A stretch of 21,497 nucleotides of DNA from a virus, in IMG/VR virus record IMGVR_UViG_3300047469_000164, positions 1 to 21,497 of that record, one strand, 5' to 3'. The notes beneath the pieces were generated by a model. The model ran no database searches. It was not told the DNA's origin and saw nothing but the letters and a program-made list of their open reading frames with translations. Each line of letters begins with the position of its first letter. Positions within the stretch are counted from its first letter, which is position 1. Below, in pieces: positions 2,044 through 19,953 of the stretch. Made by a program: the position numbers and the translations under genes.

Positions 2044-2132
2044 ATCGACATATTAATGACCAAGCGCAACTATGGCAATAGACATATCTATATTTTTAAG
2101 CCGAACAGCCGGTAGGAAAACAACATGTCTAT
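2044..2132. repeat. three operator-like copies of an ATAGACATAT element
   Basis: Within this divergent intergenic region the decamer occurs as ATCGACATAT (2044-2053), ATAGACATAT (2078-2087) and, on the minus strand, ATAGACATGT (2132-2123). The middle copy is part of a palindrome, ATAGA-CATA-TCTAT (2078-2091). The copies flank or overlap the leftward promoter and sit beside the TAGGAAAA box of the rightward operon. They look like binding sites for a regulator of both directions. That role is inferred. Confidence 0.4.
2050..2078 (-). promoter_or_regulatory. sigma70-like promoter for the leftward cluster
   Basis: On the minus strand TTGCCA (2078-2073) and TAATAT (2055-2050) are separated by exactly 17 bases, matching the -35 consensus at 5/6 and the -10 at 4/6. 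The predicted transcript would start near 2043 and give a leader of about 20 bases before ATG 2024. The TTGC core of the -35 resembles the two leftward promoters at 13470 and 13872. Confidence 0.55.
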
Positions 2133-2155
2133 GGGATACGGCGCGGCCGTAGCAT
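2113..2155 (+). promoter_or_regulatory. TAGGAAAA-type putative rightward promoter, copy 1 (tail operon)
   Basis: TAGGAAAA at 2113-2120 is followed 29 bases later by TAGCAT (2150-2155), which takes the place of the GAGAAT seen in copies 2-4. There is no -35 hexamer at 17-base spacing. A small hairpin (TACGGC-GCG-GCCGTA, 2137-2151) lies between the two. If TAGCAT acts as the -10, transcription would begin about at the ATG of the first tail gene (2162). That gene has no Shine-Dalgarno sequence, so its message might be leaderless. This is the weakest of the four copies. Confidence 0.45.
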
Positions 2156-2161
2156 TGACGC

Positions 2162-2455
2162 ATGGCAAAAATCCCCGCTTCCGACCTCGTTGATATGACG
2201 TCCCACTGGCTCGCAACGCCGCTCAATGGCTATCTGGGCAGCGATTATGGGCAGAACGTCACCGACATGCTGCAAAAGCCGCTCGCGTCCGGACTTGCAG
2301 ACGCTGTCATCGCCAAGCTGCGCAACGACGTGCCGCTCCTCGGCGCGCAGCCGCGTGGCGCGGTCAACATCTATGCGCAGGACACCGGGCCGGACAAGCG
2401 CAACCTTTATATCGAGGTCGCGGGCGAACTCGTACAGCTTGGGAGCGACAACTAA
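2162..2455 (+). CDS. small first protein of the tail/baseplate operon, 97 aa
   Basis: The protein starts MAKIPASDLVDMTSHWLATP and ends in a beta-rich tail with IYAQDTGPDKRNLYIEV and ELVQLGSDN. No Shine-Dalgarno sequence precedes the ATG. The stop TAA is directly followed by the ATG of the baseplate J-like gene. By position it is probably a baseplate component, comparable to the small gp25/gpW-type protein that often precedes gpJ. I could not confirm the gp25/gpW signature, so that is a positional guess. No signal peptide or membrane helix is present. Confidence 0.65.
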   Translation: MAKIPASDLVDMTSHWLATPLNGYLGSDYGQNVTDMLQKPLASGLADAVIAKLRNDVPLLGAQPRGAVNIYAQDTGPDKRNLYIEVAGELVQLGSDN

Positions 2456-3898
2456 ATGGCTTACAGCCGCGACGACTTCTGGACCGCCGTGCAGGCTGCT
2501 GCGCAGGACTACCCGACGGCCGCCCTCTACTATCAGGCAAGCGACCCGCGCCTGCTTATGTCGCTGTCGGCGCAGGCGACGATGCTCGCCATGCTGTCGT
2601 CGCAGATCGACGTCGAGAGCGTCGAGGCGTTCAACAAGACGCGCGATACGACCGTGCTCGCGGATGCCGCGATGAAGGGCATCCTGCCGTTCGCGGTTCC
2701 GCCGCGCGTCACGCTCACCGGCAAAAACCCGGCCGCCGTGCCGCTCAATATCGTCACCGGTCGCCGCTTTCTCGACTCCTACGGCCGGGTGTACGTCGCT
2801 GAATCGTCGGTGACCATCGCCGCAGGCGGAAGCGGCGCGGTGAACGCCAAGCAGATGACGACTCGCCCGCTCACGCACACGGTTTCGAACTCCGCACCCT
2901 TCTACCCGGTTCAGATCACGCCGAACACGGATACCGAACAGCAGATCAGCGGCCTTTCGGTAACCGTCGGCGGCACGCTCTACCCGTACACGCCTGAGTT
3001 TGCGAACCTGCTCGCGGGTGAGCCCGGATACGACCTCGCCACGGATGAACTGCGGCAGCTTTGGGTCAAGTTCGGTTGGGCTAACACGTTTGGCGTCCAG
3101 CCTTCCAATGGCACCGAAATTGACTTTGTGGTTGAGGAAACCTACGGCGCGCTCGCGGTCGATGTGAACGCGGTTTTCACGCTGGAAACGACCGTCGACA
3201 CCAACGACCGGCAAGCCACGTTCGCAATGACGGCCGTCGTTAATCCGGGTGCTGATCCTGTCGATATCGACACGCTGCGCGAGTGGGCGAGTGTGCCGCC
3301 GCAATATGATTCGTCGGCCGTCTACCTCGGCAACTTCGATGCGTTGATCCGCCGCAATCTCAACAACCTCGATTTCCTGTCCGTCTGGAATGAGCAGGTC
3401 GAGGAAACCGTGCGCGGCGGCAACATCAACAACATCAACCGGCTGTTCGTAGCATTCGCGACCTCCGACGGCAGCGACCCGACCTATATCAAGACGCAAA
3501 TCAAGAAGATCATCGCGGCGGCCGATGACTCCTACTGGGTCAAGTTCGTGGATGAGGTCGAGACGCCGCTGCCGGTGACGATCAATGCGCAGGTGTCCGT
3601 CGTGCATGATCCGGCCGATGTAACGGCGGAAATCATTTCGGAGGTGCTTGCGATCTACGGCAAGGGCGCGGCGGCTACCAAGCGCGGCATGCTCACGCTG
3701 TCGACCAAGAAAATCAACTCGACGCTCACGGACTCGAAAACCGGCGTCGTGGCGCTTCAGGATGACGGCAGCGATTTGCAGATCGTTATCCCGGCATCGG
3801 TGGGCCTGCTGCCTGAGCAGTATCGCTATGTCACGGCCGCCTCACTCACCGTGAATGTGACGCAGGCGACGTACAACGACGGCATGTGGAGCCATTGA
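2456..3898 (+). CDS. baseplate wedge protein, gpJ/Mu gp47-like, 480 aa
   Basis: The N-terminal third has the arrangement of the baseplate J/gp47 family. A helical region with LAMLSSQIDVESVEAFNKTRD and TTVLADAAMKGILP is followed by PPRVTLTGKNPAAVPLN and then the beta segment GRRFLDSYGRVYVAESSVTI with an AGGSGAVNAKQ loop. The middle contains PVDIDTLREWASVPPQY, and the C-terminal part carries a VTINAQVSVVHDPADVTAEI repeat-like domain typical of the family's wedge arms. Family members assemble around the tail hub and trigger sheath contraction. GGGAG lies ten bases before the ATG. The gene abuts its upstream neighbour and is followed by a GTG start two bases after its stop. Confidence 0.75.
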   Translation: MAYSRDDFWTAVQAAAQDYPTAALYYQASDPRLLMSLSAQATMLAMLSSQIDVESVEAFNKTRDTTVLADAAMKGILPFAVPPRVTLTGKNPAAVPLNIVTGRRFLDSYGRVYVAESSVTIAAGGSGAVNAKQMTTRPLTHTVSNSAPFYPVQITPNTDTEQQISGLSVTVGGTLYPYTPEFANLLAGEPGYDLATDELRQLWVKFGWANTFGVQPSNGTEIDFVVEETYGALAVDVNAVFTLETTVDTNDRQATFAMTAVVNPGADPVDIDTLREWASVPPQYDSSAVYLGNFDALIRRNLNNLDFLSVWNEQVEETVRGGNINNINRLFVAFATSDGSDPTYIKTQIKKIIAAADDSYWVKFVDEVETPLPVTINAQVSVVHDPADVTAEIISEVLAIYGKGAAATKRGMLTLSTKKINSTLTDSKTGVVALQDDGSDLQIVIPASVGLLPEQYRYVTAASLTVNVTQATYNDGMWSH

Positions 3899-3899
3899 C

Positions 3900-5210
3900 G
3901 TGACGACGGACCTGCTGCCTATCGACGCGCCCGCGCTACAACCGCTCGCGAACAGCGCGGAATATGACGAACTGGAAACGGAACTGAAAGCGGTTTTCAC
4001 GTCCGTTTTCAACGCCATGATCCGCGACCGCGAACGCCAGTTGAATTTCACCGGCATGCCGCACCTCGGCGATGCCGAATTGATGGAGCGCGTGCTCAAG
4101 CTCAACGGCCTCGCGATCATCCGCCGCGACGACACGCGAACCGCGTTTCTGCTGAAGGCCGCCCTTGCGCGCAACCCGCGTCGGGGCATGCTATTTCTGA
4201 AGCAATACCTTCAGGCCACCTGGCCGAATGTGTGGAAGGTCGAGCCGCTTTGGCACCCAATTGCGACGGCCAATGAATACCCGGATCACGTCACGCCGCG
4301 CACGATCATCGACATTGGCACGAACGTGCAGGCGGTCTATGACCCGGACAGCATGGACGGCCTGCCGACGATCTACCGCACCGACTGGCAGGGGGAGCAG
4401 AAGCTCTATCCGGTCGCGCGCACGAACCTGATTCAGAACTCGAATCTGGCGAGTGCGGGCGCGAACTGGACCCTGTCCAATGCCACGGTCACGTCAAACT
4501 CAGTCATCGCACCGGACGGCACGAATACGGGTGCGAAGGTCACGCGCACGGCGGCGGGCAACGACTGGGCCGCGCAGACGGAAACGGCCATTGCAGCGGC
4601 GAGCAAGACATTTACCGGGTCGGTTTATCTGCTCGGCGCAGGCATGCCGGGCAATTACACGCTTCGCCTGCGCGATAGCGCGGACACGCAATACGCCACT
4701 CAGAACATCACGCTAGACGACACCGTCGCCTGGCACCGCGTTTCGATCACGGCAGCACTTCCGGCAACAGCCGTCGGCGGCGCGAAATTCACCGTCGATC
4801 CGACGTCGGACACCGGCGCGGCAGGCGATGCGTTCTATATGTGGGGCGCGCAGCTTGAGGTCGGCGTACTGACAGGGCTGATTCAGACGCCCGTCGGCGC
4901 GACAAAGACGGTCACAGACTACACGGTTGACGCGAACGGCATTGCGACGTTCTCCGATGGCGTGTCACCAGCGACGCCCATCACGCACTTTCGCACGAGC
5001 CGCGTGCGCGTGACGCTGCCTGTCACGACGGACAACGGCCTCGGCCTGCTCGAAGTCGCCAAGGCGTTCCGGTCGGTGCTGGCCGCGCGCCTCATGATCG
5101 AACTTCAACTGTCGACCGTGTTCGAGGGCATCGGCGTAACGGGCGGCCTTGCAATGTCAAACGGTGCATCGGGCGTGATGCCGGTGCTCGCAAACGGCAC
5201 ACTGAGTTAA
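3900..5210 (+). CDS. gpI-like baseplate protein with an inserted jelly-roll/CBM-like segment, 436 aa
   Basis: GTG start directly after the J-like gene. The N-terminal ~145 residues (LPIDAPALQPLANSAEYDEL, ELMERVLKLNGLAIIRRDD, WPNVWKVEPLW) resemble gpI-type proteins, which follow gpJ in many myoviruses. The segment from about residue 173 to 320 starts PVARTNLIQNSNLASAGANW and includes GSVYLLGAGMPGNYTLRLRD and FYMWGAQLEVG. That is the wording of the beta-sandwich carbohydrate-binding-like domain often found in phage fibres and head spikes. After it, VTDYTVDANGIATFSDG leads to a C-terminal alpha/beta stretch (RVRVTLPVTTDNGLGLLEV). I infer that the receptor-type module is inserted in a baseplate protein. 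The start and fusion are clear, but the gpI assignment is moderate. Confidence 0.6.
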   Translation: MTTDLLPIDAPALQPLANSAEYDELETELKAVFTSVFNAMIRDRERQLNFTGMPHLGDAELMERVLKLNGLAIIRRDDTRTAFLLKAALARNPRRGMLFLKQYLQATWPNVWKVEPLWHPIATANEYPDHVTPRTIIDIGTNVQAVYDPDSMDGLPTIYRTDWQGEQKLYPVARTNLIQNSNLASAGANWTLSNATVTSNSVIAPDGTNTGAKVTRTAAGNDWAAQTETAIAAASKTFTGSVYLLGAGMPGNYTLRLRDSADTQYATQNITLDDTVAWHRVSITAALPATAVGGAKFTVDPTSDTGAAGDAFYMWGAQLEVGVLTGLIQTPVGATKTVTDYTVDANGIATFSDGVSPATPITHFRTSRVRVTLPVTTDNGLGLLEVAKAFRSVLAARLMIELQLSTVFEGIGVTGGLAMSNGASGVMPVLANGTLS

Positions 5211-5221
5211 ACGAGGGGAAT

Positions 5222-6091
5222 ATGGGAAGCAAAACCGGAAAGATCACGTACAACGTGCACGAGCGGGGCCGCCAGTTCGTCGGCAAGGACCGCAATTTCA
5301 ACCTCGGCGCGCTCGCCGCGCTCGTGAACAGTAACGCCGTGCAAGAGCGCGTGCGCAACCGCGACCTCACCGGCTTTTACGGGCACTGGATTCGTGCCCG
5401 GTTCGGGCTCAACCCGCCTGAGTCGCTTGTGTTCGACGGTAAGGTAGTCAACATCGAGCCCGCGCTTGTGACGACGTACCTAGCAGCCGACGATGAGGGC
5501 AACATCACGCACGAGGCTGAGTTTCTCGACACGGACGCGGGCTCGATTGCAGAGCGGCTTTTTCACTCGAAGCAAGGCGGGTTCTCGTCGGCGATTGAGG
5601 CCGCGCCGAATATCCGGCCGTCGTTCCCGACGATCTTTGCCGGGTTCGATTACGTGTTCGAGCCGAACTACTCGACCAATCGCGGTTTCATGTTCGACAG
5701 CACGCTCGCCGACGACAGCACGCTGTTCGATGCCGTCATGCAGGAATGGCATATGTCAAACGCCATGATGCGCAACCTGTTCGATTCGATGCAGGCGGAT
5801 CACCTGCTGGCAGTGCAGACGATTGAACGCCTCAAAGAGGAAAACGAGGAATTGCTGTCCATCGCCTCGCGCGCGACGGGTAAAAACGGCGCGGTGCTGC
5901 TCGACAGTACGGGCGGCCACGTCGCGCCGTTGTCGATCAGTTCGCGCGCAACGGCCGATTTCCGCGCGCGTGCCCGCTCGTTCAGCACCGGTGCGCTCGT
6001 GCCGCTCGAAAATCTGCCCGATGACGACAGCACGGTCGCGCCCGCCGAAAACCCGGTAATCGAACATGCGCGCCGCGCGTGGGGAGTATGA
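5222..6091 (+). CDS. prohead-protease-like protein with a C-terminal coiled coil, 289 aa
   Basis: GAGGGGA lies just before the ATG. Residues 50-130 resemble the herpes-assemblin/T4 gp21-type prohead protease layout. A GHW motif (His55) is followed by PALVTTYLAADDEGNITHEA, then AEFLDTDAGSIAERLF (compare the family's ILxTPxGKxxxxLI) and QGGFSSAIEAAP with Ser122/Ser123 where the family has G-I/V-SS. His55 and Ser122/123 are the candidate catalytic residues. Residues 195-215 (TIERLKEENEELLS) form a short coiled coil, and the C-terminus is low complexity, which could be a scaffold part. Its place among tail genes is unusual for a head protease. A tail protein that only resembles the fold remains possible. 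Confidence 0.45.
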   Translation: MGSKTGKITYNVHERGRQFVGKDRNFNLGALAALVNSNAVQERVRNRDLTGFYGHWIRARFGLNPPESLVFDGKVVNIEPALVTTYLAADDEGNITHEAEFLDTDAGSIAERLFHSKQGGFSSAIEAAPNIRPSFPTIFAGFDYVFEPNYSTNRGFMFDSTLADDSTLFDAVMQEWHMSNAMMRNLFDSMQADHLLAVQTIERLKEENEELLSIASRATGKNGAVLLDSTGGHVAPLSISSRATADFRARARSFSTGALVPLENLPDDDSTVAPAENPVIEHARRAWGV

Positions 6092-6915
6092 CGTTGAGCC
6101 TGTTCTCTGCACTCGAACAGGCGTTCGGCCAATACCTCGGCCGCTTTTATAGCGGCCTTGTGGCTGACACGCCGCAAATGAAAGAGTACGTCGCGCGCGG
6201 CCTCTCGAAAAGCATCGTCTATGCGCCCGGCCGCATGGTCGACAAGGTCGAGGACGTGCTCAACGAGTGGCGCAAGAATCAGAACGTGTCCGGGCCGGGC
6301 CTGTCGTCTCTGTTGCCCGTCTGCATCGTCTGCATTGACGAAGATTTCACGCCGTCACTGGTGGACTATGGTGCGTCCATCGGCGGCGCAGTCGACGTCA
6401 TGCTGCCCGGCGACGAACTGAATCGCGCGTACAAGGTGCGCCTGAGCGCGAACGATTACCGCGCGCAGATCGTGTTCATCGCGTCTGAGCGGCACTCGGC
6501 GCACAGCCTCGCGTTGCAGTTCAACCTCTTTACGAACGGCCCGTTCGGGCGGCGCTTCAGCATGGCGCACGAGTTCGCCGGGCAGAGCCTTGATTTCCCC
6601 GTCGTGCTCGAAGATATCAACGTCGGCGCGATTGCGCAGGAAGCGCAGAAGAACCTGCGCGTGAATGTCGCGGATTTCGTGCTGCATGCGACCGTGCCCG
6701 TATTCCAGGCACCGGGCGACGGCGAGCCCAACGACGGCAAGGCGGCACCGGCAGGCTATCCGGTTGTCACGGAAGTCAACGCGGTCAACCTGCGCACCGG
6801 CGTTGTGATTGACGATTCCGTGGATGCCAGCGGCGTGGTAACTGAGGTGCGCTCGTACACACAGCCGACCCTGCGCGTCCCTGTGATCGGTGACGATGAT
6901 GAGGTGCAATCGTGA
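6088..6915 (+). CDS. uncharacterised tail-module protein, possibly sheath/tail-terminator-like, 275 aa
   Basis: The start is ambiguous. ATG 6088 forms an ATGA overlap with the upstream stop, GTG 6079 lies nine bases earlier, and TTG 6094 has the best spacing from GGGGAG. I chose 6088. The protein contains LLPVCIVCIDEDFTPSLVDY, YKVRLSANDYRAQIVFIASE, FSMAHEFAGQSLDFPVVLED and KNLRVNVADFVLHATVPVFQ. This alternation of beta strands with a late conserved DFPVVLEDINV segment recalls tail-terminator or sheath-stabiliser proteins of other myoviruses. I could not verify a family, so this is a weak guess. It sits between the protease-like gene and a 160-aa unknown and overlaps the latter as GTGA. Confidence 0.6.
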   Translation: MTLSLFSALEQAFGQYLGRFYSGLVADTPQMKEYVARGLSKSIVYAPGRMVDKVEDVLNEWRKNQNVSGPGLSSLLPVCIVCIDEDFTPSLVDYGASIGGAVDVMLPGDELNRAYKVRLSANDYRAQIVFIASERHSAHSLALQFNLFTNGPFGRRFSMAHEFAGQSLDFPVVLEDINVGAIAQEAQKNLRVNVADFVLHATVPVFQAPGDGEPNDGKAAPAGYPVVTEVNAVNLRTGVVIDDSVDASGVVTEVRSYTQPTLRVPVIGDDDEVQS

Positions 6916-7394
6916 GCGTCATTACACTTCAGGTTGAAATCAACGGCTACAAAGGCCCGGCCGTCAACCTGCTCGCCGCTTGCGATGCAGGCGAGCCCGG
7001 CGACGCGGAAGCAACCGGCCTTGTCATCGTCTCGCAGGAGCTGCCGCCAGGCTCGCGCGAGCCCGGCGCAATGGTGACGTCAAACGACCCGCGCGCGGCG
7101 GCGCGTGACCTGCTCTTTGACGAAAGCATGATCGCGGCGGCCATCGACCTGTACTTTCGGGCTGAGTCGACGGGCATGCTCGAACTGCTTGCGCCGGTGC
7201 AAAAGCACAACCCTTCCGGCGCGGTGCAGGTGCGCGGTGTCGCGGCAGCGGGCACGCGGTACGAACTCAACCCGGATCTCACCAACGGGCAGGTCGCAGT
7301 GCTCGCGCTCATGTACGCATCGCACCGCTCGCTGTCTGTCGAAGATACGACGGACTTCGCTGACGAAATGGCCGACATGTATTTCAGCATCTAG
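6912..7394 (+). CDS. uncharacterised tail-module protein, 160 aa
   Basis: GTG start overlapping the upstream stop as GTGA. The sequence begins MSVITLQVEINGYKGPAVNL, carries VIVSQELPPGSREPGAMVTS, and ends in an acidic helix (DTTDFADEMADMYFSI). It has no signal peptide or membrane helix and I do not recognise a family. It closes the first tail operon. The next TAGGAAAA box begins two bases after its stop codon, which marks it as the last gene before a new transcription unit. A structural or assembly role is inferred from context only. Confidence 0.65.
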   Translation: MSVITLQVEINGYKGPAVNLLAACDAGEPGDAEATGLVIVSQELPPGSREPGAMVTSNDPRAAARDLLFDESMIAAAIDLYFRAESTGMLELLAPVQKHNPSGAVQVRGVAAAGTRYELNPDLTNGQVAVLALMYASHRSLSVEDTTDFADEMADMYFSI

Positions 7395-7396
7395 CG

Positions 7397-7439
7397 TAGG
7401 AAAACGCGCGCCGCCGCGCGCGTGAGGTGACCTGAGAAT
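7397..7439 (+). promoter_or_regulatory. TAGGAAAA-type putative promoter, copy 2 (tail-fibre operon)
   Basis: TAGGAAAA (7397-7404) is followed after 29 bases by GAGAAT (7434-7439). A CG-rich self-complementary stretch (7405-7422) follows the octamer at once. The box begins two bases after a stop codon and about 60 bases before the GTG of the tail-fibre gene. If GAGAAT is a -10 element the message would begin near 7446. If the octamer itself directs initiation, the leader would include the hairpin at 7426-7463. Confidence 0.55.
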
Positions 7440-7463
7440 CGGAGCATCCATTCTGAGGTCACC
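7426..7463 (+). promoter_or_regulatory. long inverted repeat covering the tail-fibre ribosome binding site
   Basis: GGTGACCTGAGAAT (7426-7439) pairs with ATTCTGAGGTCACC (7450-7463) at 13 of 14 positions, with a single G-G mismatch and a ten-base loop. The 3' arm contains GAGGT, the Shine-Dalgarno sequence of the GTG start at 7465. As RNA it would hide the ribosome binding site. As DNA the AGGTGACCT arm is itself near-palindromic, so it could instead be an operator. No U-run follows, so it is not a terminator. Confidence 0.6.
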
Positions 7464-7464
7464 A

Positions 7465-8910
7465 GTGACAGTTACCCTCAACCCCAAAATCACCAACGCC
7501 GGTCTGGCTCTCATGCCGACCGGGGATGCGACCGGCTTTTCGGTGCAGTTGACGCATATCGCTATCGGCCTTGGACTCTACTCGCTCGGCGGTACGGGCG
7601 ACGCCGACGACACGGCTGCGCGCTCGATGGTCGCGCTCAAGAATGAAATTGCGCGCTATGCGATTTCGAGCGGCACGAACCCCAATGCGACGTCGATCCA
7701 GATCGGCACGACCATCACCGACACGGACCCGAACGGCAAGAGCCCCAACGGAAAATCCATCGGCGAAATCGGCTTCTATGCCGGTAACACGCTTTGGGCC
7801 GTGTGGAGTCGCGCCGACTCGGCGCTGTTCGTGAAGTCGGCGGGCTTCGATATCCCGTTCGCGTACACGCTCGACACGTCGGCATTCCCTCAGAACTCTG
7901 TGACCGTCACGGTCGCAACCGACCCTCAGGGCATGGCCGCGCTGATCCTCCAGCACAAGGCAGAGCCCGACCCGCACCCGCAGTATGCGACGGATGCCGA
8001 CGTTGCCGCGCTGACGGCCGTTGTCGTCACGAAACAGCCGCTGCTCGGCTTTACGCCGGTCCAGCAAGGCGGCGTGACTGGGCAAGGTGCGAACAAGATC
8101 GCAATCGGCCTTGCCAGCGACGGCAGCGGCGCTCTGAAGGTGAGCATCGACAACGTCGACAAGGGCGGCATTGCCCTGCTCGCAAGCCCCGTATTCAGCG
8201 GCGTGCCGCAAGCCCCGACGGCGGCGGCCGGGACGTCCACCAAGCAGCTTGCGACGACTGAGTTTGTCACGGCCGCGATCAGCACGGCACTGGTCGGCCA
8301 GATCGCGTGGGAGCCGCGCACGTCGGCGCGCGCGGGCTATCTGAAGCTCAATGGTGCCCTGCTCAATCGCGCAGACTATCCCGCGCTTTGGGCGTATGCG
8401 CAGTCGAGCGGCGCGCTCGTGACGGAAGCGCAATGGTCGGCCAACAGTTTTGGCTGTTTTTCGTCGGGCGACAACGCAACCACGTTCCGCATTCCTGAGG
8501 TGCGCGGCGAGTCGATCCGGTGTTGGGATGACAGCCGGGGGGTCGACACCTCGCGCGGCATCGGTACGTGGCAGGACGGCCAGAACCTCTCGCATATTCA
8601 TGCCGCGTCGGCCGCCGCCGTCGGCGATCATGCGCATAGCGCATGGACGGACGGTCAAGGCGCGCACGGCCACAACTTTTCGCAACAGGTTCCGCAGAGT
8701 GTCGGCGACACCGACCGGGGTTCCGTGAGCAGCGGCTTCTCCATCGACACCCCTGTTTGGCCGTGGACGGACACTCAAGGCACGCACGGCCACAACGTCG
8801 GCGTGGGCGCTGCAGGCGGGCACTCTCACACCATCACCATCGGGGCGGCAGGCGGCACTGAAGTGCGCGTGCGCTCGGTCGCAATGCTCGCGATGATTCG
8901 CGCTTACTAA
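7465..8910 (+). CDS. tail fibre protein with tail-collar domain, 481 aa
   Basis: GTG start with GAGGT a few bases upstream. Residues 1-170 match the N-terminal tail-attachment region of collar-type fibres (ITNAGLALMPTGDATG, IGEIGFYAGNTLWAVWSR, and the ATDPQGMAALILQHKAEPDP hinge). Residues 175-270 are a shaft with AGTSTKQLATTEFVTAAIS. From residue 278 (GQIAWEPRTSARAGYLKLNG ... LNRADYPALWAYAQ ... FRIPEVRGE) lies a phage tail-collar domain. The C-terminus is rich in H-x-H pairs (HIHAA, GDHAHS, AHGHN, THGHN, GHSHTI), like the metal-binding tips of trimeric fibres such as T4 gp37. It acts in receptor binding. The assembly chaperone follows directly. Confidence 0.85.
   Translation: MTVTLNPKITNAGLALMPTGDATGFSVQLTHIAIGLGLYSLGGTGDADDTAARSMVALKNEIARYAISSGTNPNATSIQIGTTITDTDPNGKSPNGKSIGEIGFYAGNTLWAVWSRADSALFVKSAGFDIPFAYTLDTSAFPQNSVTVTVATDPQGMAALILQHKAEPDPHPQYATDADVAALTAVVVTKQPLLGFTPVQQGGVTGQGANKIAIGLASDGSGALKVSIDNVDKGGIALLASPVFSGVPQAPTAAAGTSTKQLATTEFVTAAISTALVGQIAWEPRTSARAGYLKLNGALLNRADYPALWAYAQSSGALVTEAQWSANSFGCFSSGDNATTFRIPEVRGESIRCWDDSRGVDTSRGIGTWQDGQNLSHIHAASAAAVGDHAHSAWTDGQGAHGHNFSQQVPQSVGDTDRGSVSSGFSIDTPVWPWTDTQGTHGHNVGVGAAGGHSHTITIGAAGGTEVRVRSVAMLAMIRAY
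8641..8796 (+). repeat. internal duplication in the fibre tip (two 36-base copies)
   Basis: Bases 8641-8676 and 8761-8796 are 31/36 identical and exactly 120 bases apart, encoding WTDGQGAHGHN and WTDTQGTHGHN. The duplication keeps frame and extends the His-x-His tip of the fibre. Confidence 0.7.
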
Positions 8911-8924
8911 ACGAGGTTATCCCC

Positions 8925-12299: not shown

Positions 12300-12315
12300 T
12301 AGCATGCTCCATGCG

Positions 12316-12338
12316 AAAAATCCCGCGCGAGGGCGGGA
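12316..12338 (-). terminator. Rho-independent terminator on the leftward strand
   Basis: Read on the minus strand: TCCCGC, loop CCTCGC, GCGGGA, then TTTTT. The stem is six GC-rich pairs. It lies between the stop at 12347 and the start at 12299, inside the leftward block, so it probably attenuates rather than ends all transcription there. Confidence 0.75.
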
Positions 12339-12346
12339 CCGTGATC

Positions 12347-12670: not shown

Positions 12671-12870
12671 TTGTCGCCTCCCGTCAACAGCATGTCAATG
12701 CGCGGGACGATGCCCGGCCAGTTCGCATTCGGCGCGAGCACGGTGCGGAACCGGGGTTCCACGCGCGCCGGGCGCACGCATACGGTTGTTGTGCTCTTTG
12801 CCGCCTGCGCGGCGGCGAGCATCGTTGTGTGGCGCTTCACGATGGATAGCGCGTTAGCCTTGCGGGGCAT
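12667..12870 (-). CDS. small uncharacterised protein, 67 aa
   Basis: The ATG is preceded by a purine-rich GAGGGAGAGGGA that gives a very strong ribosome binding site. It begins MPRKANALSIVKRHTTMLAA, is basic at the N-terminus and Ala/Thr-rich, and later carries NANWPGIVPRIDMLLTGGDK. Twelve bases separate it from the DUF6011-like gene upstream, so the two are probably co-transcribed. No domain was recognised. Confidence 0.6.
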   Translation of the reverse strand: MPRKANALSIVKRHTTMLAAAQAAKSTTTVCVRPARVEPRFRTVLAPNANWPGIVPRIDMLLTGGDK

Positions 12871-12882
12871 TCCCTCTCCCTC

Positions 12883-13443
12883 TCAAAATCCGAAGCGCTT
12901 GCGGCAGATCGGGCCGATGGAAAGCGCGATGCTTTCCTCGTTCGTCAGTTCGAGCCCGCAGCACGCGCAGCGGCCGGTTTCCTTGCCGAACGCTTCAGCG
13001 GCCTGTTTCGGGTCGGCGCAGACGTCGAGCACCTTGGCGCGCTCTGCCGTCGTACATGCGTCGCTCGCAACGAATTTGCCGTCGGCAACCTTGCCAAGGT
13101 AACGGCCGCCGCGCTTCTGGTTGCCTGCCGTGACCCAAATCGCGCCCTTGTTGCGACCGCTCATCGCGAGCGCGAACGTGAAATCAGCCAGGAACATGCG
13201 CGGGTACTTCAGGCCGCTTTCAGCCGCGTTGTTAAACGCCGTCACGATGCGATCAACGCCAGCGGCATCGACCGCCACGGCTGACGCATTGCGCGCGAGA
13301 ATGCGCGCGACCGCCTGAATCATCGGGTCAGTCAAGTCACCCGTCTCGCGCAGTCGCTTGTCGAGAGAGCGCGCGAAATCGTCGATTGCCGCATGGTGGA
13401 TGATCCACTTGACTTCCGGTGCGTTCGATTTCAGTTGAAACAT
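12883..13443 (-). CDS. DUF6011-like zinc-binding phage protein, 186 aa
   Basis: GGAG lies six bases before the ATG, and a promoter (13470-13498) gives a leader of about 20 bases. The N-terminal 90 residues are helical (ARSLDKRLRETGDLTDPMIQ, DRIVTAFNNAAESGLKYPRM). The C-terminal part contains GGRYLGKVADGKFVAS, then DPKQAAEAFGKETGRCACCG and LTNEESIALSIGPICRKRFG. The 'TGxCxxCGxxLT...SxxxGxGPxCxxxF' signature is that of the DUF6011-type phage domain, with Cys159, Cys162 and Cys180 as likely zinc ligands. It is common in phage early regions, with an unknown exact function (nucleic-acid binding is plausible). Confidence 0.75.
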   Translation of the reverse strand: MFQLKSNAPEVKWIIHHAAIDDFARSLDKRLRETGDLTDPMIQAVARILARNASAVAVDAAGVDRIVTAFNNAAESGLKYPRMFLADFTFALAMSGRNKGAIWVTAGNQKRGGRYLGKVADGKFVASDACTTAERAKVLDVCADPKQAAEAFGKETGRCACCGLELTNEESIALSIGPICRKRFGF

Positions 13444-13469
13444 GCCGCGCTCCTGTCGGGTGAGACTTG

Positions 13470-13498
13470 ATTGTATGTTGTCACGTTATCCAGTGCAA
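13470..13498 (-). promoter_or_regulatory. leftward promoter A, upstream of the DUF6011-like gene
   Basis: Minus strand TTGCAC (13498-13493), 17 bases, TACAAT (13475-13470). The -10 fits consensus at 5/6. The bases from -10 back into the spacer (AACGTGACAACATACAAT) are identical to promoter B at 13872 over 18 bases. A transcript would begin near 13463. Confidence 0.7.
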
Positions 13499-13502
13499 GC
13501 GC

Positions 13503-13841
13503 TTATGCCGCGAATCCTGCAACCGGCTCAAGCTGGCGCATGAGGCCGCGCCAAGCACTGTTTTCGCCGAAAAACGGCTTGCGTTCTTCGTCCGTCGTGC
13601 ACGCCGCGAGCGACACCTCAAGCACTGCAAGGCGCGCCGTTGCATGGCCGCGCAGGCGTTCGACGTCGGCATCGCCCAGTTCGACGCTGATCGAGCCGTC
13701 TTTCGCGATACCGCCCGCCGCCCACTTGCCGCGAATGACCACCTGAATCAGTTCCGCGCCATCGAACGGCACCGTACCGGCCGCCTCGCCTTCCGTCGGC
13801 AGGATGAGCGATTGCAGTTTCTTCGTGAGTTTCAGTTTCAT
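13503..13841 (-). CDS. uncharacterised early-type protein, 112 aa
   Basis: The sequence begins MKLKLTKKLQSLILPTEGEA and includes GTVPFDGAELIQVVIRGKWA, KDGSISVELGDADVERLRGH and CTTDEERKPFFGENSAWRGL. A beta-rich N-terminus is followed by helices. No family was recognised. GGGGTG lies close before the ATG, and promoter B (13872-13900) gives a leader of about 24 bases. It is the first gene of the leftward block. Its stop is five bases from the -35 of promoter A, so each of the first two genes has its own promoter copy. Confidence 0.65.
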   Translation of the reverse strand: MKLKLTKKLQSLILPTEGEAAGTVPFDGAELIQVVIRGKWAAGGIAKDGSISVELGDADVERLRGHATARLAVLEVSLAACTTDEERKPFFGENSAWRGLMRQLEPVAGFAA

Positions 13842-13871
13842 GGGTCACCCCGTTGTGTGATTGAGCCTCAA

Positions 13872-13900
13872 TTGTATGTTGTCACGTTTGAACATGCAAC
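13872..13900 (-). promoter_or_regulatory. leftward promoter B, head of the leftward block
   Basis: Minus strand TTGCAT (13900-13895), 17 bases, TACAAT (13877-13872). It shares an exact 18-base core with promoter A plus TTGCA at the same distance. Its -35 lies ten bases from the divergent TAGGAAAA box at 13910, so leftward and rightward initiation may interfere here. Confidence 0.7.
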
Positions 13901-13909
13901 GGATTCCGT

Positions 13910-13950
13910 AGGAAAAGTGCCGCCGCTCGCGCGCGCGCGCGACCCGAGAA
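13910..13950 (+). promoter_or_regulatory. TAGGAAAA-type putative promoter, copy 3 (polyvalent operon)
   Basis: TAGGAAAA (13910-13917) is followed after 27 bases, including a CG-alternating run, by GAGAAT (13945-13950). The ATG of the first polyvalent gene is at 13958. If GAGAAT is the -10 the mRNA would start at about the ATG and be leaderless. No strong Shine-Dalgarno sequence precedes this ATG. Confidence 0.55.
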
Positions 13951-13957
13951 TGGCTCA

Positions 13958-16615
13958 ATGGACACCTATTCGCACATCGAGCAAGCCGCGCACGACAGCG
14001 CATTCGGGCACAACAGCCGCCCGCTGCCGTCCGTCGCGCAGCAGGACGCCGGGAACTACAAAAAGGGCCGCGCCGCCGTCGCGGGCATCCCCGTTGTGAT
14101 CGAGAACCCTCGCGGCTCGCTGCGCGAGTGGCGTGCCGCCGACGGCACGAGCGGCGCGAACCTCATGAAGTTCCATTACGGCTACGTCGAAGGCGTCACC
14201 GGCGCGGACGGCGATGAACTGGATTGCTACGTCGGCCCGTACCCGGAATCCGCAGCGGCCTACGTCGTCAATCAGAACGTGCGTGGCGCGTTCGATGAGC
14301 ACAAGGTGATGCTCGGCTTTCCCGATCAGCGCACGGCTGAAGCGGGCTATCTGAGCAACTTCAATGCGGGCTGGCCGGGCCTGCAAAGCTGTGTGCCTTG
14401 CTCGATTCCGCAATTACGTTGGTGGATGACCAACGGCGATATGTCCATCCCGCTTACGCAAGATCAACTCCCTCAAGAGGAAAGGAACCCCATGCAAAAG
14501 GTGCTTTGGGATAGCGCGAATATGCCCGTCGGCAAAACCCTCGCGCAGGTGCTGTACGACATTCGCGCGAACGATGGCGCGGACGGGCTCATTTTCGACC
14601 CGGTGACCATCGCCGATATCATGGGCGATGCTGACGGCGTGGTGACGCTCGATGCGCTCGTGATCCCGTTCGCGAAGCTGCCGCAGCGCATGGAAATCCT
14701 GCGCAAGGTGATGGACCGCAAGGGCGGCGATATCAAGGTGCTGTCGGTGCAGGTCACGGAACCTTTCACGCAGCGCGGTACGACCAACGTCGCATCCGTG
14801 TTCGAACTGAGCGACGGCCAGACGGTCACGATCTTTTTTCACAATCCGGACGTCACGCCGAAAAAGATCGTCGCGACGGATGAGGTCGTTTCGTGGAAAT
14901 GGATGCTCAACAAAAAGGACATCACGATTGTCGTCGCGCCGGAAAAAGGCCGCGACCTCAACATTCAGAATGTCGCCGCGCGCGTGATGACGCTCGCCGC
15001 GCGCAACAGTTCGCGCTTTGCGCAGACCAACGCCAAGCGGGCCGAACGCATGGAGAACATCGCGGGCCTGCAAAAGCAGTATGACGATGGCGTGGTGACG
15101 CTGCAAAACCTCAATAAGGAAATCGGCGAACTGGAAATCACCGTCGAGCAAAAGCAGCGCGTGACGCCCGTTGTCCCCGATCCGACGCCAGAGCCGCAGC
15201 CGGTCATCGAGCCGACACCGGAACCGACGCCGGAACCCACGCCCGCTGCGCCGGTCGACGTCGATTCGTTGCCTGCTGTCGTCTCGGCCGACCTACCCTT
15301 TGATGACGTCGGCGATACGGCCCGCTGGCTCGTGATGAACGCGCCGCGCCCGCTTGTGGGCGATTCCGTACTGGACAACGGCCCGATGCTCGAAGGCCGC
15401 TTCTATGCCCTGATCGACCTTTCGGACGGCAGCGCAGGCAATCTGATCGCTGAGAACCGCCAGAACGGCGCGGTCGCAGTGTTCGCCGCCGACAGCGCGA
15501 CGCAAACCGCGATGGCACTGAATCTCGCCGACCCGGAATACCTGCCCTCCTACCTCGCGATGGACGCGCAGGAACTGAGCGAAAGCATCGGCGGCCTGTT
15601 GTCGCAACTGAAGGAAGGTAAGACCTACGGCGAATTGAAGGCGCTCGCCGCAAAGGGAATGCCCGTTGCACCGGTTGTCGAGCCGGAACCCGTTGCGCAA
15701 GGTGAGCCGGTGCTCGAAGCGGCCGGTTTCAAGAATGTGCATGCGAACGTATGGGTGCGCGCGATCACGCTCGATGATGGCAAAAAGCTGCAGGTCAATA
15801 TCAACGTGGCGGACAACGGCTATAACGCCGTCAAGTCGGTGACGTTTCCCGGCATCACTGGCGCGAGCCAGGCAATCGGCGTGTTCGAGACGGCAGAGGC
15901 GGCCGCTGCTGCCGCGCAGGCTGAGTTCGACGCATTCACGGCAGAAGCCGCCAAGCCGACCTATCCGGGCGCTGACGTGCTCGAAGCAAACGGATTCGTG
16001 CACAGCGCTGACAACGTGTGGACGCGGTCGGAAAGCAACGCTGACGGCGTGAAACTCGCCCTGATCGCGTTCGTTCAGACTGACGGCACCTATGCGCTGC
16101 GCAAGGCGATCATCGGCCTGACGGAAACCGGCGCAGTTGAGGACGTCGGCACGTATGCCAAGCCGGGCGAACTAGTCGACGCCGCAGTTGACGAAATGAC
16201 GGCGTTCCTTAGCGAGCCGCAGCCGGAACCGACACCTGAGCCCTCGCCGGACCCACTGCCGAATCCCGGCCCTACGCCGCTGCCGCTGCCTGAGCCGCTG
16301 CCTGATCCCACGCCGACGGCCGATGAACAGGCTGCCGCAGAGGAAGCTGCCCGCATGGCCGCCGAACAGGCGGCAGCAGAGCAGGCCGCCGCCGAAGCTG
16401 CCGCAGCGCAGGCCGCCGCGCGCACCGCTGACGCGACGTTTGTCCAGTCGGCCGCCGACGGAAACGAGAACTTCTACGATAAGGCCGTCACCGACCGGCT
16501 TGCCGCGCTCGCGACGCAATACGCGGGCGATGATGAGTTCGCCGCGCTGATCGCATCCGCCAAGACGGCCGCAAAGTACTTTTTCATCGCTGAGTTCAAA
16601 AAGAAGGTGGGCTAA
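13958..16615 (+). CDS. polyvalent protein: pyrophosphatase-like domain fused to a DarA-like region and repeat modules, 885 aa
   Basis: Residues 33-155 form an inorganic-pyrophosphatase-like domain of the phage polyvalent type. NYKKGRAAVAGIPVVIENP and KFHYGYVEGVTGADGDELDC include DGDELDC (84-90), which fits the PPase active-site pattern D-x-D-[PE]-[LIVMF]-D. Residues 179-400 (KVLWDSANMPVGKTLAQVLY, SVFELSDGQTVTIFFHNPDV, VVSWKWMLNKKDITIVVAPE) match proteins annotated as DarA-related (defence against restriction), as I remember them. A Pro/Glu/Thr linker (401-435) follows. Two AGF/NVW repeats (585-660, 674-752), a second Pro-rich linker, an Ala-rich helix and a C-terminal tail (824-885) complete it. 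P1 Dar proteins are virion proteins injected with DNA; a similar role is inferred here. An internal start at 14492 is likely. Confidence 0.75.
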   Translation: MDTYSHIEQAAHDSAFGHNSRPLPSVAQQDAGNYKKGRAAVAGIPVVIENPRGSLREWRAADGTSGANLMKFHYGYVEGVTGADGDELDCYVGPYPESAAAYVVNQNVRGAFDEHKVMLGFPDQRTAEAGYLSNFNAGWPGLQSCVPCSIPQLRWWMTNGDMSIPLTQDQLPQEERNPMQKVLWDSANMPVGKTLAQVLYDIRANDGADGLIFDPVTIADIMGDADGVVTLDALVIPFAKLPQRMEILRKVMDRKGGDIKVLSVQVTEPFTQRGTTNVASVFELSDGQTVTIFFHNPDVTPKKIVATDEVVSWKWMLNKKDITIVVAPEKGRDLNIQNVAARVMTLAARNSSRFAQTNAKRAERMENIAGLQKQYDDGVVTLQNLNKEIGELEITVEQKQRVTPVVPDPTPEPQPVIEPTPEPTPEPTPAAPVDVDSLPAVVSADLPFDDVGDTARWLVMNAPRPLVGDSVLDNGPMLEGRFYALIDLSDGSAGNLIAENRQNGAVAVFAADSATQTAMALNLADPEYLPSYLAMDAQELSESIGGLLSQLKEGKTYGELKALAAKGMPVAPVVEPEPVAQGEPVLEAAGFKNVHANVWVRAITLDDGKKLQVNINVADNGYNAVKSVTFPGITGASQAIGVFETAEAAAAAAQAEFDAFTAEAAKPTYPGADVLEANGFVHSADNVWTRSESNADGVKLALIAFVQTDGTYALRKAIIGLTETGAVEDVGTYAKPGELVDAAVDEMTAFLSEPQPEPTPEPSPDPLPNPGPTPLPLPEPLPDPTPTADEQAAAEEAARMAAEQAAAEQAAAEAAAAQAAARTADATFVQSAADGNENFYDKAVTDRLAALATQYAGDDEFAALIASAKTAAKYFFIAEFKKKVG
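14477..14494 (+). promoter_or_regulatory. strong internal ribosome binding site and ATG inside the polyvalent gene
   Basis: GAGGAAAGGA (14477-14486) lies five bases before an in-frame ATG at 14492 (Met179). This is a better ribosome binding site than the one at the annotated start. Translation from here would give a 707-aa protein beginning MQKVLWDSANMPV, exactly at the border between the pyrophosphatase-like and DarA-like regions. Confidence 0.6.
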
Positions 16616-18525
16616 TGAGTGCCGATGGTGAGATTTTCACGGCCATCGGCGAAGGCGCGGCGCTGCTCGCCGCGCTCGATGAGAACGCGCCGGATTTTTT
16701 TGACCGTCTGAATCGCCTGCGCGAAATCCTCGCCATGCTCGGCGGCCCGGCACCGCTCGCGGTGTCGCTGTCGGATCGCGAGGGCGCGCGCGCGTCGCTT
16801 GCCCGCTACATGCAGACCGGGCTCGCCGACCTGCCGCCCGTGCTGGCCGCACTCGAAGCAGAAACGGTAGCGGAACTGGCGGCAATGGCGGGCCTGCCCT
16901 CCATCGCGCAAGAGGCGAAGAACTGGGCAGCGAGCACGCAAAGTGAGTTTCAGGCGCATACCGACACGACCAAGCTCGCCGCGTTCGATCACTTTTCGGC
17001 GCGCGGCATCGGCCGCAGCATGAATACGGCGCGCCTGCGCGACAACGTACGCGACGCCGACAAGCTGCTGCAGACGAGCGTGCGCGACGATCCCGAATAC
17101 ACCGCCTCTCGCGAGCGCTATAACGAAGTCACCCGCGCGCGCATTGCCCGCATCCGCGAACTCGACATGGTCATCGCCGAATACAAGCGGCAATACGATG
17201 ACCTGCTCAATTCGCGCAATGTGACGGAAGTCGACCGTAACGACGCGTTCGTGCGGCTCGACCGCGCGCGCCGCGACCGCGAGGACTATTACAACGAGTC
17301 GGACGCGGAACAGACGCGCGCCTATGAGGAAATGATGGCCGCCGCGAAGCGTTTCGACGCGGACAAGGCGGCGGCGCACCTGGCTCTCTTTGAGGACAAC
17401 GGCAAGCAGATTCTGTCGAAGCTGGCTGAAGCGTCTCCCGTCACCGAGGAAGCCGCGCGCGCATGGGCGGCCGAACAGGTCATTGATGACAACGCCAAGA
17501 CGAAGCTCAAGCGGCTCGGCTACAAGCCCGATGACGTCGTTCGCGACATGGCAGAGTATTACCGCCTGAGCGGCGGCAAGGCGTCCACCATCCGCATCAG
17601 CGCGGGCGGCAAGCGCGCCAACGCGGTAGGCGTCGACACGCGCGTAGGCGAAAAGGTCATCAACCTCGGCACGTATTTCAACAAGACGGTGCTCTTTCAC
17701 GAACTGGCGCACCATCTGGAGAATGATCCGATTGCCAAGGCCGCGTCAAACGGCTTTCTGCTCAAGCGGCGCGACGATGAGAAGGTCTACAGCCTGCGCG
17801 ACCTCACCGGCATCAAGGCATACGGCCGCGATGAGGTGGCGTGGAAAGACGGCTTTACCGACCCGTATGTTGGTAAGGTCTATCGTGGCGGCATCACTGA
17901 GGTTTGGTCTATGGGTGTCCAATACCTAGCAAACCCCAAAGACGCCGCGTGGTTCGCCGGTAAAGACCCGGAAATGTTCAACCTCATCACCGGCTACCTG
18001 AGCGCGGCAGCAACGCCCGCGATGCGCGCAAAGCTGAACCTGCACGCTGACGCGATTGACGACAAGCAGGATCAGGCCGCTGCGCTCGAAAGCCAGTATG
18101 AGAAGGCGCTCGCCTACCTCGCGTCGAAAGCACCTGTGACGGACGATGACTGGTATAGCACGTTCGACAAAAACACCGTGCAAGGCGAGCAGGTCGAATA
18201 CATGCTCAGGCGCGATAAATCGAAGAACCCGCAGTATGTGGGGGCGAACGGTGAATACAAGGTATTTTCGGGTACGTTCCGCAACAAGAACACGAAGCGC
18301 AACGCGAAAGGCTATCTGATCCTCACCATCCGGGGCGATGACTACCCCGAATATGAGTACGTGCATGGCGACATGCAACTGGTGCGGGCCGTTATCGCCG
18401 CGTCGCGCCTGAATGGCATTACCCTGTCGAGCACCTTTTATCGTTACTTCTACGATGGCCTTGGCTCGGCAGCAGACCGCCAGCAAAAGCTGATCGACCT
18501 CGTAGGCCCGGAGAATGTGCAATGA
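16615..18525 (+). CDS. polyvalent metallopeptidase protein, 636 aa
   Basis: TAATG overlap with the upstream gene. Residues 1-47 are the GEGAALL module shared with the next gene (IFTAIGEGAALLAALDEN). Residues 150-250 are long charged helices, probably coiled coil (SRERYNEVTRARIARIRELD, DRARRDREDYYNESDAEQTR). Residues 355-440 hold a zinc-peptidase signature: VLFHELAHHLEN with His362, Glu363 and His366, and GITEVWSMGVQYL with Glu429 as a likely third ligand, as in phage polyvalent metallopeptidases. The C-terminal 120 residues (NPQYVGANGEYKVFSGTFRN, GYLILTIRGDDYPEYEYVHG) are a separate beta-rich domain of unknown role. The enzyme may process virion proteins or host targets, which is inferred. 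It ends ATGA with the next gene. Confidence 0.75.
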   Translation: MSADGEIFTAIGEGAALLAALDENAPDFFDRLNRLREILAMLGGPAPLAVSLSDREGARASLARYMQTGLADLPPVLAALEAETVAELAAMAGLPSIAQEAKNWAASTQSEFQAHTDTTKLAAFDHFSARGIGRSMNTARLRDNVRDADKLLQTSVRDDPEYTASRERYNEVTRARIARIRELDMVIAEYKRQYDDLLNSRNVTEVDRNDAFVRLDRARRDREDYYNESDAEQTRAYEEMMAAAKRFDADKAAAHLALFEDNGKQILSKLAEASPVTEEAARAWAAEQVIDDNAKTKLKRLGYKPDDVVRDMAEYYRLSGGKASTIRISAGGKRANAVGVDTRVGEKVINLGTYFNKTVLFHELAHHLENDPIAKAASNGFLLKRRDDEKVYSLRDLTGIKAYGRDEVAWKDGFTDPYVGKVYRGGITEVWSMGVQYLANPKDAAWFAGKDPEMFNLITGYLSAAATPAMRAKLNLHADAIDDKQDQAAALESQYEKALAYLASKAPVTDDDWYSTFDKNTVQGEQVEYMLRRDKSKNPQYVGANGEYKVFSGTFRNKNTKRNAKGYLILTIRGDDYPEYEYVHGDMQLVRAVIAASRLNGITLSSTFYRYFYDGLGSAADRQQKLIDLVGPENVQ

Positions 18526-19871
18526 CCATTACGACCGTTTATCGGGTGCTCACGCCGCACGGCGGCTTTGAGGCCCAATGGGATGAGGACGAGGAAATCC
18601 CCGTCGCCTACGTGGGCGACGAAAGCGCCATCGCGTTTTTTAAGTCGTTTCTTGACCTCAATCCCATTTCCGCGCGCGGCGGCTCGCTCGTGCAGTTCGC
18701 CGCCCTCCAGCCCGGCGACATGGCCTTTTGCCAGAATGCGCAGTACGGCATTAAGGTTATCGAGCCGCTTGACGATTTGATTGACGACGACACCGGCGAC
18801 ACGCAAATGCCCACTATCTACGACTCCGCGAGCGACGCGGACACCTTTACCCTCATCGGCGAGGGCGCAGCCCTGCTCAACGGGCTCGACGAAAACTCCG
18901 ACACGTTCTTTGTCGACCTCGGCCGCCTGCGCGAAATCGTGATCGCGCTCGGCGCTGCCGCGCCGGTGCCTGAGCCCATGCCCTACGACGTCACGCAGGA
19001 TCAGCCCGCTCTGGCTGCGGCCGGGTATGCCAAGGTGAAGGACAACCCGACAGGCAACGAATGGTTGCGCGAGGTCGCGCTCGCCGACGATATGGGCTCG
19101 CTGCTGTACCGCGTGTTCGTTGAATGGGGCTCCCCGGTGCAATACCGCGTCACGGTCACGGCAGCGCTCACCGGCGTGCGCAAGCCGGGCTCCGACTCGC
19201 TTGGCTGGTATGCGACGCCTGAGGAAGCCGTAGCCGCCGCGCAAAAGTCGTGCGACGCGTTCCCGTTCCCGAAGCTGGTCGTACCCGTCGCAGACCCGGA
19301 GCCGACCGGTACGGAAAACGAGCCGGTCATCGAGCCGCCCGCCCCTGATACCTTGTCGACCTCCCCTCTCTCCGACGAAACCATGCTGAAGTACATCGCC
19401 ATTGCCGCCGACTCCATCACCGCGCTGCGCCGCATCGACGTCTATCGCGTGCTCTACTCGCTCGCGGCCGACAACGCCAACGGCGTGACGCGCGCCGCGC
19501 TCGCGACGTGGATCGCGCAGAAGCGCCCGGACCTCGCCGCCGAAGTAACGGCCGTGATGGCCGAAGAATGGCCCGACGACGGCTGGACGCCGCCCGCTGC
19601 TGATCCCGTTGTGGCGGTGACGGACCCGCTGCCGGAGGGCGGTACGGTCGTGCCGCCCATCGAGCCCGCGCCGAACGGCGAGCGCGCCGACGACCTCGCG
19701 TTTCTCCTGTCGGTGAGCGCGCAAAGCATCGACATGATGGCCGACGGCATCGCCGAACGCATCGAGGCGACGCTCGGCAAATATCCGGGCGATGCCGATA
19801 TCGAGCAGGCCGTGCGCGAATCTGTCGCCTCGTACACGGACTACATGCAAAAGCTCATCGGCGGGCAGTAA
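18522..19871 (+). CDS. modular companion of the anti-restriction block, 449 aa
   Basis: ATGA overlap with the metallopeptidase gene. Residues 1-95 form a compact N-terminal domain (VYRVLTPHGGFEAQWDEDEE, AFFKSFLDLNPISARGGSLV, GDMAFCQNAQYGIKV) that I do not recognise. Residues 103-150 repeat the GEGAALL module of the upstream gene. Residues 163-247 (ALAAAGYAKVKDNPTGNEWL ... EEAVAAAQKSCDAF) are a third copy of the AGF/NVW module. Residues 285-350 include IAADSITALRRIDVYRVLYS and a Trp-rich PDDGWTPP. Residues 389-449 resemble the C-terminal tail of the 885-aa protein. No catalytic motif is visible. It looks like an assembly of adaptor or packaging modules. A terminator follows. Confidence 0.65.
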   Translation: MTITTVYRVLTPHGGFEAQWDEDEEIPVAYVGDESAIAFFKSFLDLNPISARGGSLVQFAALQPGDMAFCQNAQYGIKVIEPLDDLIDDDTGDTQMPTIYDSASDADTFTLIGEGAALLNGLDENSDTFFVDLGRLREIVIALGAAAPVPEPMPYDVTQDQPALAAAGYAKVKDNPTGNEWLREVALADDMGSLLYRVFVEWGSPVQYRVTVTAALTGVRKPGSDSLGWYATPEEAVAAAQKSCDAFPFPKLVVPVADPEPTGTENEPVIEPPAPDTLSTSPLSDETMLKYIAIAADSITALRRIDVYRVLYSLAADNANGVTRAALATWIAQKRPDLAAEVTAVMAEEWPDDGWTPPAADPVVAVTDPLPEGGTVVPPIEPAPNGERADDLAFLLSVSAQSIDMMADGIAERIEATLGKYPGDADIEQAVRESVASYTDYMQKLIGGQ

Positions 19872-19883
19872 CACCGGCACCGG

Positions 19884-19908
19884 AAAGCCCCTGAAACAGG
19901 GGCTTTTT
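19884..19908 (+). terminator. Rho-independent terminator after the polyvalent operon
   Basis: AAAGCCCCTG, loop AAA, CAGGGGCTTT, ending in a run of five T (19904-19908). The ten-base stem is perfect. It separates the 449-aa gene from the DarB-like gene, whose TAGGAAAA box begins three bases later. Confidence 0.9.
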
Positions 19909-19910
19909 CA

Positions 19911-19953
19911 TAGGAAAAGCCGCGCCAGTAAAGGCAGAAAGGGCCGCGAGAAT
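19911..19953 (+). promoter_or_regulatory. TAGGAAAA-type putative promoter, copy 4 (DarB-like gene)
   Basis: TAGGAAAA (19911-19918) follows directly on the terminator. GAGAAT (19948-19953) comes 29 bases later, the same spacing as in copies 1 and 2. The DarB-like ATG is at 19986, leaving a leader of about 26 bases if GAGAAT is the -10. Because a strong terminator lies immediately upstream, this gene needs its own promoter, which makes this the best-supported copy. Confidence 0.65.

Follow-up and report, generated by a model that had tools for sequence, protein, structure and literature searches.

The window, a 21.5-kb viral record that was analysed over its full length and is itself a fragment, contains four copies of the octamer TAGGAAAA, each followed at a fixed distance by a -10-like hexamer. 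Judged by sequence, these sites are very likely late promoters of the phage, at which the host RNA polymerase with sigma-70 would be assisted by a phage activator bound at about -45. The same promoter class appears to be common to a large family of contractile-tailed phages that carry DarA/DarB.

All four octamers are located on the plus strand, at 2113, 7397, 13909 and 19911, and a search of the minus strand of the window for TAGGAAAA gave no copy. The exact count agrees with the original prediction of four plus-strand copies and no other on either strand; three of its positions stand, while the third copy begins at 13909 and not at 13910. Dinucleotide shuffling gives an expectation of 0.13 copies, and four or more were seen in 0 of 100 shuffles. 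Each octamer is intergenic and lies ahead of a rightward unit, with 41, 60, 41 and 67 bases between octamer end and start codon for copies 1-4, in line with the 40-67 bases proposed for the first gene of each unit, and on recount a G again precedes three of the four copies. The units begin with a baseplate-operon gene (2162), a collar/fibre gene (7465), a DarA/polyvalent gene (13958) and a DarB-like methylase gene (19986). The hexamers had been correctly described as GAGAAT in three cases and TAGCAT, at 29 bases, in one, but the spacer, given as 27 or 29, is exactly 29 in 4 of 4 sites. A TTGACA-like hexamer at normal -35 spacing is absent from all four, as had been claimed, and no sigma-70 -35/-10 pair overlaps any of the octamer sites.

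In promoter 1, the box at 2113-2120 (+), predicted to span -49 to -42, is followed by the -10 element TAGCAT at 2150-2155 (+). T(-7) is separated by six bases from the ATG at 2162 (+), the A of which is the predicted, leaderless transcription start. The baseplate operon behind it opens with gene 1 (phrog_4683, 2162-2455, +) and a baseplate protein (phrog_1369, 2456-3898, +). Promoter 2, with orthologous sites in G002, G019, G008 and others, consists of a box at 7397-7404 (+) and GAGAAT at 7434-7439 (+), with a predicted start at about 7446, upstream of the tail collar domain (fibre) gene (7465-8910, +), which has a Shine-Dalgarno-like GAGG ahead of its start. Its -10 lies inside an inverted repeat, GGTGACCTGAGAAT ... 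ATTCTGAGGTCACC (7426-7463), the right arm of which covers the Shine-Dalgarno sequence; comparable inverted repeats occur at several class A sites, slightly enriched over shuffles (score >=8: 11/110). For promoter 3, the box at 13909-13916 (+) and GAGAAT at 13946-13951 (+) place the predicted start at 13958, again on the ATG and thus leaderless, of a gene for a polyvalent protein with InPase and DarA_N domains (13958-16615, +); the box-to-ATG distance of 49 is identical in G002 and G019. The box of promoter 4 (19911-19918, +) is found just past a hairpin-plus-T-run terminator at about 19886-19908, with GAGAAT at 19948-19953 (+), a predicted start at about 19960 and the DarB-like N6-methylase gene at 19986-21497 (+), which continues beyond the window.

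The leftward units, which begin at 13443 and 13841, both have ordinary -35/-10 promoters outside the late class: TTGCAC-N17-TACAAT at 13470-13498 (-) and TTGCAT-N17-TACAAT at 13871-13899 (-), the latter back to back with promoter 3 and 10 bases from its box. Hence, it is only the rightward set that lacks a -35. Both leftward promoters contain AACGTGACAACATACAAT, and six copies of TGACAACAT are present in G002; since these words are repeated and, in G002, mostly positioned 23-45 bases upstream of a gene, they appear to be an early-gene operator set.

Megablast of the window against named phages gave no match. A scan of IMG/VR for the exact 14-base pattern had G019, by DNA alone, among the matches listed, with four sites on one strand, while most of the single-hit records listed are probably due to chance. 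G002, a 93-kb contig from Paraburkholderia sp. C35, contains 10 octamers, 10 of them on one strand, and G019, a 94-kb contig, contains 11, with 10 on one strand; in both they mostly precede genes of the capsid, tube, baseplate, fibre, dar and terminase regions. Among the 8-mers found upstream of genes in G002, G019 and G008, TAGGAAAA shows the strongest over-representation, with 7 copies observed against 0.11 expected, 10 against 0.11 and 6 against 0.04. The possibility that the octamer is scattered within genes elsewhere is not borne out in complete relatives: among eight related genomes, which are not independent of one another, 63 of 66 copies are intergenic, and intergenic DNA makes up only about 12% of G002 and G019. 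Behind 46 of the 63 intergenic octamers, xAnn[AC]T follows at exactly N29 (other spacers: mean 1.3), and the orientation of the element nearly always matches that of the downstream gene. At the end of terL the octamer overlaps the stop codon (TAG) in G002 (68288), G019 (57243), G008 (10959) and G005 (18073), and because it lies 11 bases ahead of the next ATG in three of these four genomes, it can double there as a Shine-Dalgarno sequence.

More distant members were analysed by a blind search in each genome for any 6-mer combined with xAxxxT at a fixed distance. A GG[AT]AA-N28-30 layout was among the top five results in 30 of 31 related phages of Beta- and Gammaproteobacteria, and the late-box word ranked first in 27 of 31, including two in which the top word covers a portion of the box; G032 was without a signal. 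In Rb1, G025, G027, G029 and G042 the word is the expected one, with a signal that alone fails correction for all words tested. When spacers of 8-44 were allowed, ordinary promoters were recovered as well (CTTGAC in G021 and G026, TTGACG in G024), which indicates that the blind method works. The box reads CGGAAAA in Rb1 (Xanthomonas), G015, G012 and many more, CGGAAAG in G028, G030, G031 and G033, CGGTAA(G) in G010 and G014, and TGGAAC in ABMM1 (Acinetobacter). Across 25 genomes, GGAAAAN30ANNMT gave 156 matches, largely on one strand, against 16 for the reversed control. Some sites of the GGTAA class fall within called genes. The hosts of the family include Paraburkholderia, Collimonas, Nitrosomonas, Acinetobacter, Avibacterium, Halomonas and others.

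Two further words, GTGCTTTA in G015 and TTTACCCGCAGGTAT in Rb1, were considered as diverged boxes and rejected; they are operator-like repeats, and the correct box in these phages is CGGAAAA. G015 has numerous operator-like intergenic AGTGCTTTA repeats, including AAAGCACA in opposite orientation (word count 6, 0.03 expected). In the Xanthomonas phage Rb1, TTTACCCGCAGGTAT is repeated close to the CI repressor region and elsewhere and is probably a repressor operator.

Conservation of the hexamer was evaluated at 74 class A sites, for which only A at hexamer position 2 and T at position 6, i.e. A(-11) and T(-7), had been required. The unselected positions 4 and 5 are A in 61/74 and 56/74 sites, respectively, and A at -11, -9 and -8 together with T(-7) is, at the level of sequence, the signature of a sigma-70 -10 element. 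The spacer between box and hexamer is rigid (28-30) and 71% GC; the -35 position within it scores slightly below that of shuffled spacers. An extended -10 (TGn) is present at 9 of 260 sites and was rejected. CA is found at -1/+1 in 70/260, and the predicted start sites are consistent with both the start-codon positions and this CA initiator. A dyad or second half-site adjoining the box was found in no phage other than the Avibacterium paragallinarum phage G043, where the palindrome TTTTCCTATTAGGAAAA was considered as a dyad operator. This was rejected, as the sequence reads as a pair of promoters placed back to back, each having its own -10; in G043, such back-to-back boxes at about 12726-12732, 20913-20919 and 30616-30622 form compact divergent promoter pairs.

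The position of the -10 relative to the start codon separates two classes of sites. The distance from T(-7) to the start codon is bimodal in the 260 sites, with 46 at 5-7 bases, 4 at 8-22 and a broad peak at 23-38. A Shine-Dalgarno-like sequence accompanies 2 of the 46 short-distance starts and 50 of 110 starts with a leader, and is thus lost only in the short class. A start of transcription about 7 bases past the -10 would produce such a pattern, since the transcript would then either have the AUG as its 5' end or need space for a leader. The 46 leaderless-type sites belong chiefly to the baseplate gene (19) and DarA (13). With start codons 5-7 bases past the -10 and mostly no Shine-Dalgarno sequence, the baseplate and darA mRNAs should therefore be leaderless, as predicted from the -10 position. 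The gene starts were taken from a simple caller that favours Shine-Dalgarno-like sequence, a bias that works against detecting leaderless starts.

The arrangement was also examined at gene 1 of the baseplate operon. GGAAAA is found at -52 to -42 from the ATG, a distance equivalent to that of promoter 1, in 69 of 102 non-redundant loci of relatives (other windows 0-2, shuffled mean 0.57). An A-N3-T pair, corresponding to A(-11)/T(-7), has its T 7 or 8 bases ahead of the A of the ATG in 63 of these 69 loci, against a background of 2.4 per offset. The ATG is preceded by C, at the predicted -1, in 56/69 and by a Shine-Dalgarno-like sequence in 1/69.

To find a protein that might read the box, the conserved core of G002 was compared with distant members by phmmer. 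The sole protein with the appearance of a DNA-binding protein is 235 aa long and has an Xre-like HTH, in a screen that took its genes from a simple caller and extended to proteins whose conservation suffices for detection by phmmer. It matches the profile phrog_7396 (function unknown) and is encoded in 25/25 genomes tested, 24 of them new. In most genomes its gene is located 0.9-2.3 kb upstream of terL on the same strand, while in class C phages it is 20-28 kb away. The recognition helix reads GY.NS[TS]Q in TAGGAAAA phages, GY.N[SP]SK in most CGGAAAA phages and G[HQ] with TQ or SQ in CGGAAAG phages, and is different again in GGTAAG and GGAAC phages. It thus broadly tracks the box class, with G015, G027 and G043 as exceptions; as phylogeny alone could yield such tracking, it is support rather than proof. 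An AlphaFold model of modest confidence (pTM 0.42) contains an HTH domain as well as a long helical portion. Structural relatives were found for the HTH domain alone, a five-helix DNA-binding domain, whereas the helical C-terminal part gave no convincing structural match. The phrog_7396 protein is the leading candidate for the box-binding activator.

From these observations we infer the following course of late gene expression. The activator, most likely the phrog_7396 Xre-like HTH protein, whose gene is usually just upstream of the terminase genes, would be made earlier in infection and bind the GGAAAA-type box at -49 to -42. There it would recruit or remodel host RNA polymerase, with sigma-70 recognising the -10 element ([GT]AnAAT) where a usable -35 is absent. 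Activator bound at the box would therefore turn on the structural and DarA/DarB genes late and together. Transcription would begin about 7 bases past the -10; the mRNAs of the baseplate operon and DarA would be leaderless because this start is the A of the ATG, while the other units would have a 5' leader, about half of them with a Shine-Dalgarno-like sequence. An activator-dependent promoter, with the octamer near -45 and the hexamer as -10, had been put forward in the original prediction and is the best fit to the -10 signature, the rigid spacer and the lack of a -35.

Taken as a whole, the picture of a non-P1 phage family with an undescribed late switch, in which a phrog_7396 activator acts on a GGWAA box at about -45 with a bare sigma-70 -10, box and helix have diverged together clade by clade, and the absence of leaders from baseplate and DarA mRNAs is a conserved design, has in our view a little less than an even chance of being right. 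It is also quite possible that the promoters are the same and the box is bound by another phage protein or a host regulator, with phrog_7396 acting, e.g., as a repressor or as a regulator of the packaging operon. Xre-like proteins are often repressors, the HTH gene does not adjoin terL in some genomes, and the core-gene screen is limited by its gene caller and by phmmer-level conservation; yet no other DNA-binding protein was seen in the conserved core, the gene is universal among the genomes tested and occupies the place that lpa has in P1, and the recognition helix of its product varies broadly in step with the box class.

Readings that dispense with a phage activator or with sigma-70 fare worse. 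The four A residues at about -45 to -42 amid GC-rich DNA would suit an UP-element-like A-tract contacted by the polymerase alpha subunit, the proximal subsite of which has a similar location, so that the promoters would be constitutive. We consider this very improbable, as the two G residues are conserved to the same degree as the A run, the flanks are not AT-rich given the GC-rich spacer, the box shifts to GGTAAG or GGAAC between clades, and there is no -35 to compensate. The G at hexamer position 1 of promoters 2-4, unusual for sigma-70, and the 29-base gap, to our knowledge unlike that of any sigma factor, might point instead to a bipartite element read by a phage-encoded or alternative sigma factor or by a phage RNA polymerase. 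The hexamer, however, retains A(-11), A(-8) and T(-7). Sigma-70 region 2 (Sigma70_r2) was detected in the positive control and in none of 19 related genomes, so a non-sigma70 initiation signal, the second option of the original prediction, is disfavoured. A T7-type polymerase (RNA_pol, PF00940) gave no match in related genomes in a search in which the positive control was also undetected; overall this reading is very improbable. Hardly to be expected, finally, is a fixed DNA or RNA site for recombination, packaging or translation control in place of a promoter. TAGGA can double as stop codon and Shine-Dalgarno sequence at terL 3' ends and in a few other places, but the element nearly always points the same way as the gene downstream of it, its hexamer resembles a -10, and both the initiator and the spacing to the start codon match a transcription start.

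Late promoters driven by sigma-70 and a phage activator thus remain the preferred reading, and the closest known parallel is phage P1. Its late promoters depend on the activator Lpa (gp10) and sigma-70, have a -10 without a -35 and serve the tail-fibre and dar units, and lpa is located just upstream of the packaging genes (PMC10695390). The sites described here share the -10, the lack of a -35, a presumed activator and the equivalent units. In P1, however, a 9-bp box directly upstream of the -10 is centred at about -22, while the box here is at about -45, and the P1-box position is GC-rich and unconserved at our sites, which lack the P1-type box. Phmmer found no homologue of Lpa (phrog_1704) among all called proteins of these phages, and tblastn with Lpa gave 25 phage records, all P1-type enterobacterial phages by organism name. 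The system therefore resembles the P1 late system in its working and, with a different box position and no Lpa homologue found, is not a member of it. In the P1 late promoters that were extracted for comparison the start codons are further downstream, so that leaders are expected.

Phage-coded activators that replace the -35 at a sigma-70 -10 also act at T4 middle promoters (MotA box) and P2/Mu late promoters. The MotA box is near -30, and P2 Ogr and Mu C/Mor recognise dyads that are positioned differently; the sites described here differ from all of these in sequence and spacing, and the candidate protein is a different one. Activators that work from a site upstream of the -10 are known in the Xre family; of its activators with solved structures, restriction controller proteins such as C.Esp1396I, PlcR and ComR, as well as the fold relatives SinR and 434 repressor, have a five-helix DNA-binding domain like that of the candidate. 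Binding in this family is usually to palindromes or paired operators near -35, whereas what is conserved here is one asymmetric box at about -45. In a leaderless mRNA, e.g. that of lambda cI, the transcript begins at the AUG and has no Shine-Dalgarno sequence. Unlike the case of cI, leaderless transcripts are predicted in this study throughout an entire family of phages, for the same late structural genes and for DarA. Leaderless mRNAs of phages are mentioned in PMC5312081.

We found no relevant account of the octamer, of Rb1 or of the late promoters of these phages in the literature, promoters are absent from the published description of ABMM1, and the literature searched contained no account of late transcription in this family. 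The present analysis provides a regulatory map, with late promoters, start sites and a candidate activator, for a widespread and almost unstudied group of phages, and suggests that late control of P1-like genome modules is exerted by at least two systems that are unrelated. The box variants and the matching protein family would form a natural series of promoter-activator pairs. The conserved leaderless mRNAs predicted for specific structural genes are a direct test case for leaderless translation and, if they exist, the leaderless baseplate and DarA mRNAs could favour translation when ribosome initiation changes late in infection.
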